This document shows, piece after piece, positions 45,011 through 52,837 of a stretch of 64,000 nt of DNA. Position 1 is the stretch's first letter. The number at the start of each line of letters is the position of its first letter. The translations under genes were made by a program, and so were the position numbers. The stretch spans positions 737,501 to 801,500 of the forward strand of contig NZ_CP090975.1 in NCBI RefSeq assembly GCF_021513215.1. The letters are read 5' to 3'. A model generated the notes under the pieces. It saw nothing but the letters and a program-made list of their open reading frames with translations. It was not told the origin of the DNA and searched no databases. Origin of the DNA: Suttonella sp. R2A3. GTDB taxonomy: Bacteria; Pseudomonadota; Gammaproteobacteria; Cardiobacteriales; Cardiobacteriaceae.

Positions 45011-45874
45011 ATGATCTACCTATTGCTAAGTATTGCTGCGAGCGTCAGTGTGTCGGTGTTGTTAAAAATCGCCCGTCGGCAAAACTTCGCTATCAGCCAT
45101 GCGATCGCGGTTAATTATCTGATCGCCACGGCGCTATGCTGGTTTGTCTTAAAACCTGATCTCAGCGCAACCGATGCATTAATCTCACAATGGCCAATCT
45201 TTGCTGCCCTCGGTCTATTGCTGCCAACTGTGTTTATTATCATGGGCAAAGCCGTCGCTGAAGTGGGAATTGTTAAATCCGATGCCGCACAACGCCTGTC
45301 GTTATTTTTACCGATCTTAGCCGCCTTCACCCTCTTTGGCGAGTCGTTAAGCCCGATTAAATTGAGCGGGATTATTTTGGCGTTTATCGCGCTATGTGCG
45401 CTTATTTATGGCGGTAAAGGGAACACAAAACGCCAACAAGGTATTGCCCAAACCGCCCTGCTGCTTTTGGGCGTGTGGGCAGGTTATGGGGTAATCGATA
45501 TCTTGTTCAAACATATCGCCAAGAGCGGTGCGGCTTTTTCCAGCATTTTACTGGTCAGCTTTATCCTCGCAGGCGTGGTGATGTTTGCTTATTTGCTCGC
45601 TAAAGGCAGTCGTTGGTCAATGCGTGACGTGCTCGCCGGACTGCTGCTTGGCGTACTCAATTTCGCCAATATCTTATTCTATATCCGTGCCCACCAAGCG
45701 ATGAGTGATAACCCATCGCTGGTCTTCGCGGGAATGAATTTGGGCGTTATTTCCTTAGGAACGCTCATTGGCGCTGCAGCCTTTGGCGAGAAAATCCGCG
45801 CGATCAATGCGCTAGGGATTACCCTCGCCATGGCCGCGATTATTGTGCTCTTTTATGGCCAGCGAATCTTTTAA
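45011..45874 (+). CDS. EamA/DMT-family transporter
   Basis: Ten-helix membrane protein of 287 residues, two EamA repeats, in the drug/metabolite transporter superfamily. Hydrophobic segments run throughout, with the polar GKGNTKRQQ loop near residue 135 joining the two halves. The first half has FGESLSPIKLSGIILAFIA and the second AAFGEKIRAINALGITLAMA, the repeated EamA end motif. Substrate cannot be inferred. It converges on nnrS with a four-base overlap of stop codons. Confidence 0.88.
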   Translation: MIYLLLSIAASVSVSVLLKIARRQNFAISHAIAVNYLIATALCWFVLKPDLSATDALISQWPIFAALGLLLPTVFIIMGKAVAEVGIVKSDAAQRLSLFLPILAAFTLFGESLSPIKLSGIILAFIALCALIYGGKGNTKRQQGIAQTALLLLGVWAGYGVIDILFKHIAKSGAAFSSILLVSFILAGVVMFAYLLAKGSRWSMRDVLAGLLLGVLNFANILFYIRAHQAMSDNPSLVFAGMNLGVISLGTLIGAAAFGEKIRAINALGITLAMAAIIVLFYGQRIF

Positions 45875-47034
45875 CCAAACTTGCCATCAGGGCGCGCGCT
45901 GATCCAAATTAGCCAGTACGCGCTCACCAGTAACACAAAGGCAACGGTCCACGCGACTTGTGCGTGGATCATCCACACCACATAGTGCTCAGGCAGGATA
46001 ATTGGCATAATCACACGAAAAATCAACGCAGCAAAGAGCAAATAAAAGCCAATCAATAATCGCTTCGGTGGTGCATGGATATTGCGCCCTGTGTGCCCCA
46101 GGCTCACTCGACCAATCATCGAAAACGTCATAATACCGATCCCGCCAAGGGCGAGCATATGCATGGCAATCGATAAAGAAATCGGGACAGGCAACCACAG
46201 GCGAACAGCGAGCATTAAGAAGCCGATGACAATGCACCACATCGATAAATACATACTCCACAGCAGTGGCTTTTTCCAGAGACTCGGCGTATGCCAGCCG
46301 ATTAACCGCCAACCCATCGCAATCGCCGCCACCAGCGCAAATAAAGCTGCAGCACTATGCCAAGGCGTAAAAATATCAAGCACCACAAAGCCAAAAAAGC
46401 CAAGCAAACTGGTGCGGTCTGTCCAGGGATAATGACGCACCGCAAAGCCTGTCGCGCTTTTGATAAAAAACGGCATCACCCGTCGGCCGATCGTCAGTAC
46501 CAGTGCGATGATTATAAACAAAGCTAAATATAAGCCCCAATGCTGCCCTCTAGCCAGAGGGCCAAAAGAACCCGCCATAAACAGCAAGTTAGCAATAACC
46601 ATCAATACCAACTTGGAGAAAATACCCATCTGCCGCCATTGCTTAACCGCAAACACCGGTTTCGCAAAAAAGTACAGTAAGGCTAGGGCAAAAATGGTAT
46701 CAAGAACCATTGCGAGCGGTAATAACGCGCCGAAGAAAAAGAGTACCCTAGCGAGCAGCCAAGGCAACCAAATAAAGAACAGCGTATAACCATGTGGCAT
46801 CTTCTGTTGTGTCCACACACCAGTTGCGGTCAACAAGAATCCAGCAACCACCGCAAAACTATAGCCAAATACCATCTCATGACCATGCCAATAAAATGGG
46901 TTCATCGCCGCCATCGTGCTGCTGCCGATATGCAAACTATACAGAAACAACCAGCGCACCATGGTGAAGACGGCAAAAACGGCGGCACTGGCAAAAAATA
47001 GGCGGAAGCCTAAATTAAAAATAGCGGATCTCAT
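45871..47034 (-). CDS. nnrS: NnrS family membrane protein
   Basis: Heme- and copper-containing membrane protein of the NnrS family, linked to nitric-oxide stress or denitrification in other bacteria. The protein has about twelve hydrophobic segments and family stretches NPFYWHGHEMVFGYSFAVVAGF near residue 45, GRRVMPFFI and AMHMLALGGIGIMTFSMIGRVSLGHTGR-like sequence with conserved His. The ATG at 47034 is preferred to an in-frame GTG at 47043, though this is not certain. No nor, nir or nsrR gene is visible, and I see no clear NsrR or FNR site upstream. Confidence 0.9.
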   Translation of the reverse strand: MRSAIFNLGFRLFFASAAVFAVFTMVRWLFLYSLHIGSSTMAAMNPFYWHGHEMVFGYSFAVVAGFLLTATGVWTQQKMPHGYTLFFIWLPWLLARVLFFFGALLPLAMVLDTIFALALLYFFAKPVFAVKQWRQMGIFSKLVLMVIANLLFMAGSFGPLARGQHWGLYLALFIIIALVLTIGRRVMPFFIKSATGFAVRHYPWTDRTSLLGFFGFVVLDIFTPWHSAAALFALVAAIAMGWRLIGWHTPSLWKKPLLWSMYLSMWCIVIGFLMLAVRLWLPVPISLSIAMHMLALGGIGIMTFSMIGRVSLGHTGRNIHAPPKRLLIGFYLLFAALIFRVIMPIILPEHYVVWMIHAQVAWTVAFVLLVSAYWLIWISARPDGKFG

Positions 47035-47099
47035 GACACTCACTCAAAAAATTTGTATCTAGCTTAGCATCTAAGCACGACTCATTCACATGACCCAAA

Positions 47100-49574
47100 T
47101 CAATCGAGTACCGAAACCACGCCACGCTGTCCATCTAAACGCACGCGTTGCCCATTGCTAAGCCTCGTGCACGCATCGCGAATACTCATCACCGCCGCAA
47201 TGCCTAATTCGCGCGCGGTAACCGCACCATGCGACAACGGCCCGCCGCTTTCTGTGATCACACCTTTAGCGTGATAAAACAGCGGCGTCCAGGCTGGATT
47301 GGTGGTGCGAGCCACCAAGATAGCACCTTGCGGGAAATCGGCAAATTGCGCAGGATCAGTAATCACAAACACTTCCCCTTCGACCACCCCAGGGCTTCCA
47401 GCCAGCCCCTGCCATTGATCACCTTCATCAGTCACCATCGCTGTTTCACCGTACACCCAATCTGGCGCACGCTGCTGCGCTTCTTGATACGCTTGCTTAT
47501 TCGCTTCAGCTTGCTGGCGAATCTCAGCGTAATCTTCGCTGTTAATCGCTTGTTCTAACACATCCGGCGGCACAAAAAACACATCCATCGCCTGATCGAG
47601 TGCGCCTAAATTAACCAAACGCTTGCCGATTTCACGAGCGGCGACGCGAAATGGAATACTCAGACGCGTGGTTTGATAATGCTCAATATCATCAAGCGCG
47701 GTATAGCTGCGCGCCAAGCGAATCAATTCCTGTAAGAAAAAGCGAAATGATTCCGGGGTGTCTTTGAGTAGTTGCAACTCGGTAGCCAGCATCACGTCTT
47801 TTTTACGCCAATACGTGCGCTCATGATCATCGTCTTCTTGCTCTGCCATCATCTGAATTTGCGTGAACACCGTTTGTGGCGCTTCCAACCAGGTTGGATG
47901 ATAGGCATCAAAATCCACTTCGCGGTGACCATGACGCGCTAAAAAATCCGTAAAAGATTGTGCCAGCTCATCGTAGTCAGCCAAGGCCTGCTCCAACGAG
48001 GCTTGATCATAAAACCGCTCAGCCATTAACGCCGGATACTGACGCAACAGTCGTGACAAACGCCACATCGCCTGATTTACCGCGCCTGTCTTGGTATCGG
48101 TTACGGCAATCAATTGATCAAATACGGTTTGCGCTTTATCCCCCACAAAACGCTCTAACACCTTGCGCAGCACGCGATAGAGCAAGGTTTGCGTGAGTGA
48201 AATTGCGATATTGGGCAAGAAATAACGCGTACCCAAATCGTTAATCTCGAGCAAATGCTGCCAGCATTGCGCCAACGTTTTGCCTTCATAATCCAAGGCG
48301 TTAAAACGTCCTAATGCCAATAAATAAGCGTCCAAGTCGTTTAACCAACGTAACGGTAATTCACTGATCCACGCAAATTGCCACAGACCACCGGCTTCAA
48401 TAAACGCTGCCAAACTGCCGGTATCTTGAAAAGCCGCAAACGGCATTCGCCCCGCATAAACCGCCACCGCATTTTGGTTGCCGTAGACATAGCCATCTTT
48501 GAGCGCAAACCACTTATCATGGAAAGGCGGCAAGCCCATCAGCTCAAATGAATAATTAAGTGAGGCATGAAACCCTTTTTCGCAGAGTTGCCAGGTTAGC
48601 GGCGTCACTGGATTGGGAAAACGTTCTGCCGATTCATCGCGGGTCCAGCGTGGGGCAAAACGTGTCACCGGGCGCGATTGCAACAAATACACCGTCCCAC
48701 GCTCAATCGCCCATTCAATATCTTGCGGAAAGCCAAACCGTGCTTCAGCCTGACGCGCTAAACGGGCAATCTGCGCGGCCTGCTTGGGAGTAATTGCTGC
48801 TTGGTTTTGCGATTTAGGGTCGATAGCAACGGTTTGATTGCCTTCTGCGCTGCGTACCAACGCCTCTTTTTTACACGCAATCGTGCGCGAATGAATCCCT
48901 CCGTCACGATCAACGCGGTATTCATCCACCGGCGCTTCACCAGCAACCACCGTTTCCCCCAATCCAAAAGCTGCATTAATCAATACAACATTGACGTCAC
49001 CACCGACCGGATCAATCGAGAACGCCACACCGGCGGCTTCATCAACCCCTACATCAACCATCTGCTGAATGACCACCGCCATCGCCGCCGAATCATGCGC
49101 TACCCCGAGGCGTTCACGATAAGGCAGCACCGCCGCATTCCACAAACTCAGCCAACAACGCTTCACTGCCTCAGCAAGTGCTGTTACACCGCGCACATTC
49201 AACAAAGTGTCGTGTAATCCAGCAAAGGCTGCACCGGGCAAATCTTCCGCGCTACCGGAAGAGCGCACTGCGTAAAATCGCTCATGTTGTTGGTTTTGTA
49301 GCTCAGTTAGTGCGTTAATCACAGGTTCAGGTAACGGCTGTTCAGCCAAATAAGCACTCACAGCCGCACTTTGCGCTTGTGCATCGCCATGAGTTACCAT
49401 CAGCGCCATCACATGATCACGATGTGGTGCAAACCACTGGTAATACGCATCCGTCGTAAGGATCACACCATCGGGAACCGGTAGATGATTTTGTGCTGCT
49501 TTCGCCAGTCCATAACCTTTACCGCCGACTAAAGCGACATCAAGCGCCGCTGGATCAGAAAATCGCACAAACAT
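47100..49574 (-). CDS. PEP-utilising enzyme, rifampin-phosphotransferase-like
   Basis: Soluble enzyme of 824 residues. The N-terminus (about 1-310) is an ATP-binding PPDK_N domain with GGKGYGLAKA, then RSSGSAEDLPGAAFAGLHDT. The long middle part is unfamiliar. The C-terminal swivelling domain carries the phospho-His in ESGGPLSHGAVTARELGI at about residue 782. It stops there, with no PEP/pyruvate TIM barrel, unlike PpsA or PPDK. This ATP domain-middle-His domain order is that of rifampin phosphotransferase and related phosphotransferases. The target is unknown; an operon with lipid enzymes suggests a lipid or alcohol rather than a drug. ATG 49574 follows GAGG by six bases; an in-frame GTG lies one codon earlier. 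Confidence 0.8.
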   Translation of the reverse strand: MFVRFSDPAALDVALVGGKGYGLAKAAQNHLPVPDGVILTTDAYYQWFAPHRDHVMALMVTHGDAQAQSAAVSAYLAEQPLPEPVINALTELQNQQHERFYAVRSSGSAEDLPGAAFAGLHDTLLNVRGVTALAEAVKRCWLSLWNAAVLPYRERLGVAHDSAAMAVVIQQMVDVGVDEAAGVAFSIDPVGGDVNVVLINAAFGLGETVVAGEAPVDEYRVDRDGGIHSRTIACKKEALVRSAEGNQTVAIDPKSQNQAAITPKQAAQIARLARQAEARFGFPQDIEWAIERGTVYLLQSRPVTRFAPRWTRDESAERFPNPVTPLTWQLCEKGFHASLNYSFELMGLPPFHDKWFALKDGYVYGNQNAVAVYAGRMPFAAFQDTGSLAAFIEAGGLWQFAWISELPLRWLNDLDAYLLALGRFNALDYEGKTLAQCWQHLLEINDLGTRYFLPNIAISLTQTLLYRVLRKVLERFVGDKAQTVFDQLIAVTDTKTGAVNQAMWRLSRLLRQYPALMAERFYDQASLEQALADYDELAQSFTDFLARHGHREVDFDAYHPTWLEAPQTVFTQIQMMAEQEDDDHERTYWRKKDVMLATELQLLKDTPESFRFFLQELIRLARSYTALDDIEHYQTTRLSIPFRVAAREIGKRLVNLGALDQAMDVFFVPPDVLEQAINSEDYAEIRQQAEANKQAYQEAQQRAPDWVYGETAMVTDEGDQWQGLAGSPGVVEGEVFVITDPAQFADFPQGAILVARTTNPAWTPLFYHAKGVITESGGPLSHGAVTARELGIAAVMSIRDACTRLSNGQRVRLDGQRGVVSVLD

Positions 49575-49586
49575 CACACACCTCGC

Positions 49587-50453
49587 TTAATCAAGCAATC
49601 GTTTCGGTGAAAACCACCATAAAGCCACCGCTGCTAACAATAGACCTGCTAATACATCCACCCCGTAGTGATAACGCAAAAAGATCGTCGCTGCGATCAA
49701 TCCCAGCATCACCGGCAATAAACACCACGCCGTTTTACGGTACCCATCAAGATAAAAGAACGCGACGATAAACACCGTTATCGCGGTATGTAAGCTGGGA
49801 AAGACATCCATACCGGTCACGCCTTGTTTAACCGTCTCGATGACAAAGCGCGCCACCACACCGCCACCGCCTTGATCTGGTAGATGATAGAACACAGGAC
49901 CTGCCGCCGGCAGCGCAAAATAGCCGATAAAACCCAACAGATAGACGAACATTAAACCGTTAAAAAACGCCTTTGCTGCTGTGCTATGCCGCCGCCACGT
50001 ATAAACCGCCACGCCAGCCAATACGATAAAATAAAATGCGAAATAACACGCCGCCAACACATCCGCCAACCATGGATAATCCTCATAACGAACATAAGCT
50101 GCCAGCGATCTTCCACCCCAGATCAAACCATCCACGTGCTCTAAAAAAGTATCCGCAGACCAGTTAATCCAATAAAGATTAACCAGTTTGAGCAATGGAA
50201 AAACCAGCCAGGATAGCGCAAATAACAATGAACCAAGCCACGGCCAATCCGGCGTTCGCCATGCTTTAACCGCCGCCCACAGCCACAACAACACCGCAAA
50301 AGCACAGAGCAAAATAGGATTCAGATTACCTTCGATGAAACTAACTTCTGGATAGGTCGCAAAATCAGCAGCAATAACCTTTAGCGCCAGTACAGCCAAC
50401 AGCACAATGCACGCGATGATGACTAGAAACGGCCAAGTAATCCATGCTTTCAT
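49587..50453 (-). CDS. PAP2-superfamily membrane phosphatase (AUR1-like)
   Basis: Integral membrane protein of 288 residues with about six or more hydrophobic segments. The catalytic motifs are VFPSLHTA near residue 215 and FLRYHYGVDVLAG near 265, matching the C2 and C3 motifs of inositolphosphotransferase-like PAP2 proteins. It would remove or transfer a phosphate or phospho-alcohol on a lipid, with the active site facing the periplasm. The ATG overlaps the stop of the acyltransferase (TGATG), and the next gene starts ten bases after its stop. An additional 43 in-frame upstream codons overlap the acyltransferase and are rejected. Exact substrate unknown. Confidence 0.85.
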   Translation of the reverse strand: MKAWITWPFLVIIACIVLLAVLALKVIAADFATYPEVSFIEGNLNPILLCAFAVLLWLWAAVKAWRTPDWPWLGSLLFALSWLVFPLLKLVNLYWINWSADTFLEHVDGLIWGGRSLAAYVRYEDYPWLADVLAACYFAFYFIVLAGVAVYTWRRHSTAAKAFFNGLMFVYLLGFIGYFALPAAGPVFYHLPDQGGGGVVARFVIETVKQGVTGMDVFPSLHTAITVFIVAFFYLDGYRKTAWCLLPVMLGLIAATIFLRYHYGVDVLAGLLLAAVALWWFSPKRLLD

Positions 50454-51463
50454 CAATCCTCCAAATCGAGCGGTTGTGGCTCGGGATACAGCCACCAGCC
50501 CGCCAAACCAACGCTTAAACCGAGCACAGCCAACCACGGTAGGTAGATAAGCAGCAACAGATAGCAAACGATTTGTAACCACGCACCATAGAATCCGCCG
50601 AGCAAGCGAAAAAACGTCACATTATTACGTCCATCAGCGCCACGTTGCGCTAAGCGAGCAGCCAGCATCACCATAGGAAACCCTAGGATTAGCGCGACCG
50701 TTGCTAAATATTTTCTCCAAGAAGATTCACCTGTAGCATGGAACTCTGCCGGTTTCTCCTCAGCGCGTTGCGCGCGCAAAAATGCTTCGCCAAAATCAGC
50801 TCCTTGTTGTGCTTGTCGCCAAGCCGAGCGTTGTACCGCATTAAATTGTCGTACGTCACGACAGTCCACCGACACAGCATCAAGCGCTGCAGCACATTCT
50901 GTCTGTAACGCTTTAACGTCATCCGCCAGTGGCACAAACGGCTTCCCTCGCACCACCGATACCCGTGAGCGAAATCCATCAGGTTTGGTATAAAACACCC
51001 CCATCGGCTGCACGACAAAATCCACACCTGCTGCACGGCATTTCGCAGCAATCACCGCCATCCCAGCCTGGTAGTCTTGCGGGGCGAACGACCATTCGCT
51101 CGTCCCCTCCGGCAAAATACACACATCACCACCGGCGTGAATTTGCGCCACTGCAGCGGCAACAGGTGAGGCGACTGCACTGCGCTTCAATCCATAACGC
51201 TGGCAGTCTTTTTCACGCACCACAGCAATTCCATCAAAAAGCACGCGTAAAAATGCTTTACGTAATAACTGGATGGAAATCAGCGATGGTGTTCGTCCTA
51301 GCGCATGCACATAGACTTGGCCATCGGTTGCGCCATTGCGATGACTACCGATAAACAGCGTTGGGCGAGGATCACGAGGCACACCACGCACAGTAATACG
51401 CGAAAAATAAAGTCGCGTCATCAGCCGCGCTAACCAGGCATGCCATCGCGAGAGGTGTTTCAT
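50453..51463 (-). CDS. Membrane-associated acyltransferase (PlsC-like)
   Basis: Protein of 336 residues, probably a phospholipid or lysolipid acyltransferase. The catalytic block GSHRNGATDGQVYV has His41 and Asp47 spaced HX5D, as in one branch of the PlsC family, and VCILPEGTSEWSFAP near residue 115 is the EGT motif. Two hydrophobic segments lie at the C-terminus (about 245-325). It is the second gene of a four-gene operon, ten bases after the HglS-like gene. Context suggests a lipid-modifying role. Acyl donor and acceptor are unknown. Confidence 0.82.
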   Translation of the reverse strand: MKHLSRWHAWLARLMTRLYFSRITVRGVPRDPRPTLFIGSHRNGATDGQVYVHALGRTPSLISIQLLRKAFLRVLFDGIAVVREKDCQRYGLKRSAVASPVAAAVAQIHAGGDVCILPEGTSEWSFAPQDYQAGMAVIAAKCRAAGVDFVVQPMGVFYTKPDGFRSRVSVVRGKPFVPLADDVKALQTECAAALDAVSVDCRDVRQFNAVQRSAWRQAQQGADFGEAFLRAQRAEEKPAEFHATGESSWRKYLATVALILGFPMVMLAARLAQRGADGRNNVTFFRLLGGFYGAWLQIVCYLLLLIYLPWLAVLGLSVGLAGWWLYPEPQPLDLED

Positions 51464-51472
51464 TGGCAGCTA

Positions 51473-52837
51473 CTAGGCATTAAGGGCCTGCAAGCACGCA
51501 TCAATACTGCGCTGTTGGTTGGCAGCATACATCGCCATTTCATCATGCACGTTCGCACCAAGCGCTTGTTCAAAAACCGCTTGATTAGACGCCCCATCAT
51601 AATTTTTCTGGCCATCATCGCCCAGGTTCGACTGGAAGATTCCCGCCGCACTCACTGGCAAGAAATCTTCATAAACCAGCGGCTCATAAGCAACCAAACC
51701 TGCCTCTAATAAGGCATCGAGTGTCTTACCGGATTGTGCACCTGCTGCGCGACCGGTATCAGTGACAAAGTAGTGGAAAAACGCCAGACCTTGCTCGCGT
51801 AACGTCTGATACTCATCAGGGAATGCGGCAAAATGTCGGCTTAAAATCGCTTGGTATTCTTGTGCGTTCGCCTCAGTGGGTGCACCACCGGCCTCTTCGC
51901 GTGCCGCATTAAGCAGCTGATCATAAAGCGCGCGGCCTTTTGCGCTCAACGCTACCCCGCGCTGCTCAATTTCACCAAAACGCGCGGTATGACTGCCGGC
52001 GGCATCGGTAAAATGCACCGATTCTTCCAACGCTTTGAAGCTGGTTTGGCGCAATAAAATCGGGCATTTACGACGTGGTGGGCCTTCAACAACCGCTTTT
52101 GGTGTAATACCCCGTGCACTCATCCCACTTTGTACTGCATCGATATCGAGCGTACGTGGGGTCAAATGATTAATGTGTGGCCCTTTAAACGCCACTACAT
52201 CGGCAATTAAGCGGTGTTGATCATGTAATTCTTGATAGAGTGCCGCACTCACCTGACTCTGCTGATGCCAGCGGAATGTTTCCAATGCTTCGCGGACAAA
52301 CGCTTCACTATCCTCGCTACTTAACCCACCGTCATGTTCACATTGTGCAATCAGCTCGCGCACTCGTGGCGTAAAAATATCACGTTCGGCTAAGGTCGCT
52401 GCTGCTTTATCGCGCAACGCTTTATCTTCAATCAGCTCTAAACGCAATAATGAGGTAAATACACGAAATGGGCTGATATTAAGCGCCTCGCTATCAAGTG
52501 CGCGAAACGCTGTGGAATGTACCGGTACCCCGGCAGGAGCCAAATCGTAGTAACCAACCGGCTCCATCCCCATCACAGCAAACAAACGACGGATCGTAGC
52601 CAACTCTTCTGCCGTACCCACACGAATGGCACCATGACGCTCCATATCCAAACGCGTCAGCTCACCAGTATGCTCAAGCTGGCTGCGCAGCTCAGGGTGC
52701 TCGGTCATCGCCTGCGTATTCACTTCAGCGACCAGATCCATTAAATCACCATATAGCGGCACTTCCTGTTGATACATATCCGACATTGCCTTAGAAAACC
52801 GCGCGCGAATCTCAGCAGGACGCTCAAACTGATCCAT
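51473..52837 (-). CDS. 2-oxoadipate dioxygenase/decarboxylase family protein (HglS/YdcJ-like)
   Basis: Iron-dependent enzyme of the DUF1338 family, which in Pseudomonas converts 2-oxoadipate to D-2-hydroxyglutarate in lysine breakdown. The 454 residues resemble YdcJ from end to end. ERHGAIRVGT near residue 68 carries a probable metal-binding His. FTSLLRLELI and PRTLDIDAVQSGM are further family stretches. GAGGAG seven bases before ATG 52837 fixes the start; an in-frame ATG ten codons earlier is rejected. It heads an operon with an acyltransferase, PAP2 phosphatase and PEP-utilising enzyme, an odd setting for lysine catabolism. No other lysine-pathway gene is nearby. Confidence 0.85.
   Translation of the reverse strand: MDQFERPAEIRARFSKAMSDMYQQEVPLYGDLMDLVAEVNTQAMTEHPELRSQLEHTGELTRLDMERHGAIRVGTAEELATIRRLFAVMGMEPVGYYDLAPAGVPVHSTAFRALDSEALNISPFRVFTSLLRLELIEDKALRDKAAATLAERDIFTPRVRELIAQCEHDGGLSSEDSEAFVREALETFRWHQQSQVSAALYQELHDQHRLIADVVAFKGPHINHLTPRTLDIDAVQSGMSARGITPKAVVEGPPRRKCPILLRQTSFKALEESVHFTDAAGSHTARFGEIEQRGVALSAKGRALYDQLLNAAREEAGGAPTEANAQEYQAILSRHFAAFPDEYQTLREQGLAFFHYFVTDTGRAAGAQSGKTLDALLEAGLVAYEPLVYEDFLPVSAAGIFQSNLGDDGQKNYDGASNQAVFEQALGANVHDEMAMYAANQQRSIDACLQALNA

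Follow-up and report, generated by a model that had tools for sequence, protein, structure and literature searches.

A 64,000-nucleotide stretch of the Suttonella sp. R2A3 genome (contig NZ_CP090975.1, positions 737,501 to 801,500; hereafter the window) carries on its minus strand four closely spaced genes, which encode an HglS-type oxygenase, an acyltransferase (ACT), a PAP2-family membrane protein and a dikinase resembling the rifampin phosphotransferase Rph. ACT, PAP2 and the dikinase form a genuine unit, three genes plus one neighbour rather than four, and we consider the chances about even that they constitute a horizontally transferred three-enzyme membrane-lipid cassette working by the steps proposed below. 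The original prediction, made from the DNA of the window, had assigned all four genes to a small envelope-lipid pathway; for ACT, PAP2 and the Rph-like enzyme, this is supported by their conserved linkage and by the enzyme classes that they appear to represent.

Scanning of named bacterial genomes with the middle domain of the dikinase recovered 67 loci. Because the motifs DD[IE]EHYQ and P[RN]WTRDES served in the scan, their conservation within the 67-locus set is partly by construction; one locus (L015), first reached through ACT, carries the dikinase motif independently of the motif-based scan. Carriers include Cardiobacterium, Acinetobacter, Rhodanobacter, Methylomonas, Sideroxydans, Brevibacterium, Helicobacter and Campylobacter, together with members of the Verrucomicrobiota, Acidobacteriota, Planctomycetota, Synergistota, Elusimicrobiota and Desulfobulbaceae. 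ACT lies within 2.5 kb of the dikinase at 55 of the loci and is fused to it at two more (57/67 in total), both from Acidobacteriota, where ACT and dikinase make up one open frame (L076:6229-10584 and L093:2014-5014, the latter ending at a contig edge). The ten loci lacking ACT are accounted for by contig ends, by truncated or broken dikinase copies, or by an ACT gene elsewhere in the genome. PAP2 is adjacent to the dikinase at 44 of the 67 loci, Brevibacterium being the largest group in which it is not. In Methylomonas sp. LW13 (L054), all three genes sit together in close succession. A neighbourhood restricted to close relatives would have refuted the original prediction, by its own terms; instead, the ACT/PAP2/dikinase set is conserved across about ten phyla.

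The same comparison separates HglS from the other three genes. Its identity was recognized correctly, as the protein scores 547 bits against Pfam HGLS and 760.7 bits against the NCBIfam HglS equivalog, above the cut-off of 550. However, HglS stands beside the cassette at none of the 67 other dikinase loci, and it is kept by relatives without the cassette, including a genome of the same genus (G001) and many members of the order; we therefore place it outside the conserved cassette, and the claim that four genes belong together holds for ACT, PAP2 and the dikinase but not for HglS as a pathway member. In the cassette-free G001, a LysR gene precedes HglS and an aldehyde dehydrogenase gene comes after it (L107:7886-10817). 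A close orthologue of this aldehyde dehydrogenase was not found in the window genome, whose HglS seems to be without its usual partner. This absence, and the gap of just 9 bases between HglS and ACT, would suit a single pathway of all four genes along the lines originally proposed, with the oxygenase providing a hydroxy acid as lipid precursor; against the 67 loci without HglS and the cassette-free HglS genes of the same genus and order, we regard such a pathway as very improbable. The downstream NnrS gene adjoins the cassette in the window only, according to the same 67-locus comparison.

The three genes are also inherited, and lost, together. Among the Cardiobacteriaceae, ACT, PAP2 and the dikinase are all present in five genomes; no full-length ACT or dikinase was found in the other seven that were searched, and PAP2 was absent in the four of these seven searched for it. 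The genes are retained even where they are unlinked, at two loci in C. hominis and at three separate loci in Cardiobacterium valvarum. Helicobacter cinaedi has intact copies, with ACT apart from PAP2-dikinase; in Helicobacter labetoulli (L100, genome G703), dikinase and PAP2 are fragmented and ACT contains stop codons, so that all three genes of the cassette are decaying together. Pairwise tree distances of the three proteins are strongly correlated (r of 0.94, 0.94 and 0.91), with none of 500 shuffles as high. In the trees, Brevibacterium (Actinomycetota) groups with Rhodanobacter and the Cardiobacteriaceae, and a rumen metagenome-assembled genome (MAG) of the Cardiobacteriaceae groups with MAGs of Neisseriaceae and Campylobacter; the trees indicate that the set moved horizontally between distantly related bacteria. 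The cassette is rare: the dikinase occurs in 2 of 398 Pseudomonadota genomes and in 2 of 194 from the phylum to which Chthoniobacter flavus belongs (both counts include the centre genome, and one of the latter two is a partial match). A first scan of named genomes with ACT alone as the query gave no match, and plasmid records gave partial dikinase matches of less than 60% identity, none spanning 80% of the dikinase.

The dikinase comprises an ATP-grasp domain (residues 1-306), a middle domain (about 307-720) and a phosphohistidine swivel domain (about 721-824). As first noticed, this is the layout of Rph without a phosphoenolpyruvate (PEP) barrel: Pfam finds PPDK_N and PEP-utilizers domains and no C-terminal barrel. 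The swivel histidine His782, in SGGPLSHGA, is invariant across the aligned homologues, as are R312, E314, R318, H550, R551, E552, D628, D629, E631, H632 and R637 of the middle domain. The predicted model (predicted local distance difference test score, pLDDT, 88.5) matches LmRPH (5hv1) with a Z of 36.3 over 753 residues at 26% identity; the overall root-mean-square deviation of 20.6 is large, as expected with swivelling domains. PEP synthase or PPDK is ruled out, since the protein has no PEP/pyruvate-binding TIM barrel and a separate 801-aa PEP synthase is encoded in the genome.

Rph belongs to a family of small-molecule dikinases, some of which act on antibiotics (PMC4844700), and the Rph architecture extends along the whole cassette dikinase. 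The dikinase could thus inactivate a lipophilic antibiotic or detoxify an alcohol, as Rph does, with the lipid enzymes adapting the membrane to the same stress; the patchy and mobile distribution would fit. However, R666, E667 and K670, the acceptor-side catalytic residues of Rph (PMC4844700), are not preserved: in an ungapped alignment with three Rph proteins, R666-E667-x-x-K670 corresponds to D628-D629-x-x-H632, and the cassette dikinase scores 349 bits on NCBIfam RIF_Ptrans_rph, for which the cut-off is 999. These two results rule out Rph proper as its family. Because even a distant clade of the Rph family is reported to retain Arg-Glu and Lys (PMC4844700), the cassette dikinase looks like a branch apart from Rph, judging from its residues. 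The ACT-dikinase fusion and the co-decay with ACT and PAP2 favour a shared pathway instead, and a role in resistance or detoxification appears improbable. Likewise, a plain rifampin or pyruvate kinase, which had been considered at the outset, is unlikely in view of the catalytic residues, the score and the missing barrel.

The window ACT has no family match in Pfam, and 31 of 34 ACT homologues match PF01553. Its predicted model (pLDDT 94) finds GPAT1 (8e4y) and PlsC (5kym) as the best Foldseek matches. The protein has a PEGTS motif, the motif H41-x5-D47 (HX5D, with one residue more than in the usual HX4D), the invariant residues H41, N43, D47, P118, E119 and S122, and two C-terminal membrane helices. 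With this predicted fold, the catalytic His-Asp pair and the EGT motif, ACT is an acyltransferase of the LPLAT/GPAT type. The PAP2 protein matches PF14378 (PAP2_3, 71 bits) and features the motifs FPSLH and LRYHYxxD. A profile of 26 homologues has AUR1 as its best PDB match (E 6e-9, columns 68-276), and matches the phosphatase PgpB/YodM over a short stretch with an E of 2e-3. The motif set of PgpB-type phosphatases (KX6RP, PSGH and SRX5HX3D) is incomplete, as KX6RP is missing and PSLH stands for PSGH. PSLH and HYxxD without KX6RP are also the pattern of AUR1, the inositol phosphorylceramide synthase (9vj3/9ivc). Because the AUR1 match is the stronger one and KX6RP is lacking, we infer that the protein is no less likely to transfer a headgroup or phosphate than to act by hydrolysis.

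Several genes near the cassette are related to lipids. Aas and LplT occur near it in Betaproteobacteria (at the NCBIfam equivalog level), an LplT-Aas fusion lies directly upstream of it in Elusimicrobia, Brevibacterium has an acyl-CoA (coenzyme A) ligase upstream, and some Verrucomicrobiota have C92 papain-like proteins in that position. Going by their annotation, these neighbours suggest that acyl groups are activated and phospholipids remodelled. Combined with the above analysis, the following sequence of steps is proposed. In the cytoplasm, the dikinase, modelled on the action of Rph on rifampin, would move the beta-phosphate of ATP via His782 to an acceptor hydroxyl on a polyol or glycerolipid and set free AMP and inorganic phosphate (Pi); by analogy, phosphorylation of a lipid headgroup or alcohol, as originally suggested, is plausible. 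ACT would acylate the phosphorylated product with acyl-ACP (acyl carrier protein) or acyl-CoA, often supplied by the neighbouring Aas or acyl-CoA ligase, and it is plausible that dikinase and ACT catalyse consecutive steps because they are fused in the two Acidobacteriota loci. At the membrane, the AUR1-like PAP2 protein would transfer the phospho-headgroup to another lipid or remove the phosphate, and the outcome would be a non-standard or remodelled phospholipid. In its fullest form, this would be a new phospholipid route in which a phosphohistidine dikinase (ATP to AMP and Pi) replaces the ordinary kinase or cytidine diphosphate (CDP) activation and operates with a GPAT-fold acyltransferase and an AUR1-like transferase, horizontally spread over the phyla concerned; we put this forward tentatively, as possible rather than probable.

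Several observations weigh against this pathway. Aas and LplT adjoin the cassette at a minority of the loci only, and the many invariant charged residues of the middle domain would be just as compatible with a small polar substrate unrelated to lipids. PAP2 is not adjacent to the dikinase at some Verrucomicrobiota loci or in Brevibacterium, where only a weak PAP2 match was found elsewhere in three of the four genomes searched; the third of the proposed steps is therefore not universal. Moreover, most carriers have DgkA, so that an additional diacylglycerol kinase is not obviously needed, and a function of the dikinase as a replacement for DgkA is unsupported. The last point bears also on lipid salvage or repair. 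Here, PAP2 would dephosphorylate lyso- or neutral lipids in the periplasm, derived from phospholipases or from outside uptake; the lipids would cross the membrane, be re-phosphorylated by the dikinase as a mono- or diacylglycerol kinase and regain an acyl chain through ACT, with LplT and Aas at work beside it; these two are a known lysophospholipid repair pair (PMC11416262). The adjoining LplT and Aas genes of several lineages, fused in Elusimicrobia, and the nearby C92 papain-like proteins of some Verrucomicrobiota are consistent with such a role, and a patchy, mobile distribution fits an accessory repair system. Besides the presence of DgkA, however, the PAP2 protein lacks the phosphatase motif KX6RP and resembles the transferase AUR1, and the middle domain of the dikinase is full of invariant charged residues; overall, salvage is rather unlikely to be the function of the cassette.

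The coordinates of the genes in the window are listed in the table below. On re-reading of the DNA, the coordinates given at the outset and the tight junctions were correct: the gaps are 9 bases between HglS and ACT and 12 bases between PAP2 and the dikinase, and ACT and PAP2 overlap by one base in TGATG, the ATG of PAP2 using the A of the ACT stop codon TGA. A longer PAP2 open reading frame with a GTG start at 50582 was judged to be an over-extension. Purine-rich sequences of the ribosome-binding type lie shortly upstream of HglS, PAP2 and the dikinase. A scan of the region for RNA families gave no match, and scans of the region for promoters and terminators did no better than on shuffled sequence. 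Elsewhere, an LprI-like gene lies between ACT and PAP2 in a Cardiobacteriaceae MAG (L012:8572-11098), in which an Rce1-like CAAX protease gene also overlaps the ACT start, and immediately before ACT in cassettes of Betaproteobacteria there are genes for a protein family of 545-570 aa without a Pfam match (L058:4127-5839, L059:1805-3475 and L092:3777-5414).

Table. Genes of the cassette and its flanks, with positions in the window.
Gene product	Position	Strand	Remarks
HglS, 2-oxoadipate dioxygenase/decarboxylase	51473-52837	-	ATG after GAGGAG; NCBIfam HglS equivalog
ACT, LPLAT/GPAT-fold acyltransferase (predicted fold), 336 aa	50453-51463	-	First gene of the conserved cassette
PAP2_3 membrane protein, AUR1-like, 288 aa	49587-50453	-	Second cassette gene; GGAGG upstream
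Rph-architecture dikinase, 824 aa	47100-49574	-	PPDK_N and PEP-utilizers domains
NnrS	45871-47043	-	56 bases downstream of the dikinase, same strand

If the proposed pathway is right, a distinct and deeply conserved branch of Rph-type dikinases is tied to membrane lipids, a new way to build or repair phospholipids exists, and a function is found for proteins that are easily mistaken for PEP synthase. The cassette occurs in culturable strains, so its substrate is open to lipidomics and enzyme assay. No description of the three-gene combination was found in the open literature, which is weak evidence of novelty as most subscription papers lay outside the search. Dikinases of the Rph family, PAP2 proteins resembling AUR1 and acyltransferases of the LPLAT type are each known, and it is apparently their combination that is undescribed.

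Compared with known systems, the cassette shares parts with several. Those Rph-type dikinases for which a characterization was found in the literature have antibiotics or phenols as their substrates (PMC4844700 and PMC12167813). Rph of Listeria monocytogenes (5hv1/5fbs) has the same domain order and the catalytic histidine in SGGxLSHGA in common with the cassette dikinase, which, unlike Rph, is encoded with lipid enzymes. The hydroxyphenylethanone kinase HpeHI (PMC12167813) also combines an Rph-like ATP-grasp domain with a swivel domain and phosphorylates a small phenol, and the structure of HpeI (9goj) matches the ATP domain of the cassette dikinase; however, HpeHI consists of two subunits and serves aromatic catabolism, whereas the cassette dikinase is a single chain among lipid enzymes. 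The setting of the PAP2 protein differs from that of AUR1, as no recurrent sphingolipid or inositol gene was seen beside the cassette, and the protein falls below the cut-off of the model for bacterial phosphoinositol dihydroceramide synthase. The LplT-Aas system (PMC11416262) has no dikinase or PAP2 member, and the ACT of the cassette is a separate acyltransferase; the LplT-Aas system likewise joins an acyltransferase to acyl activation in the remodelling of membrane lipids.

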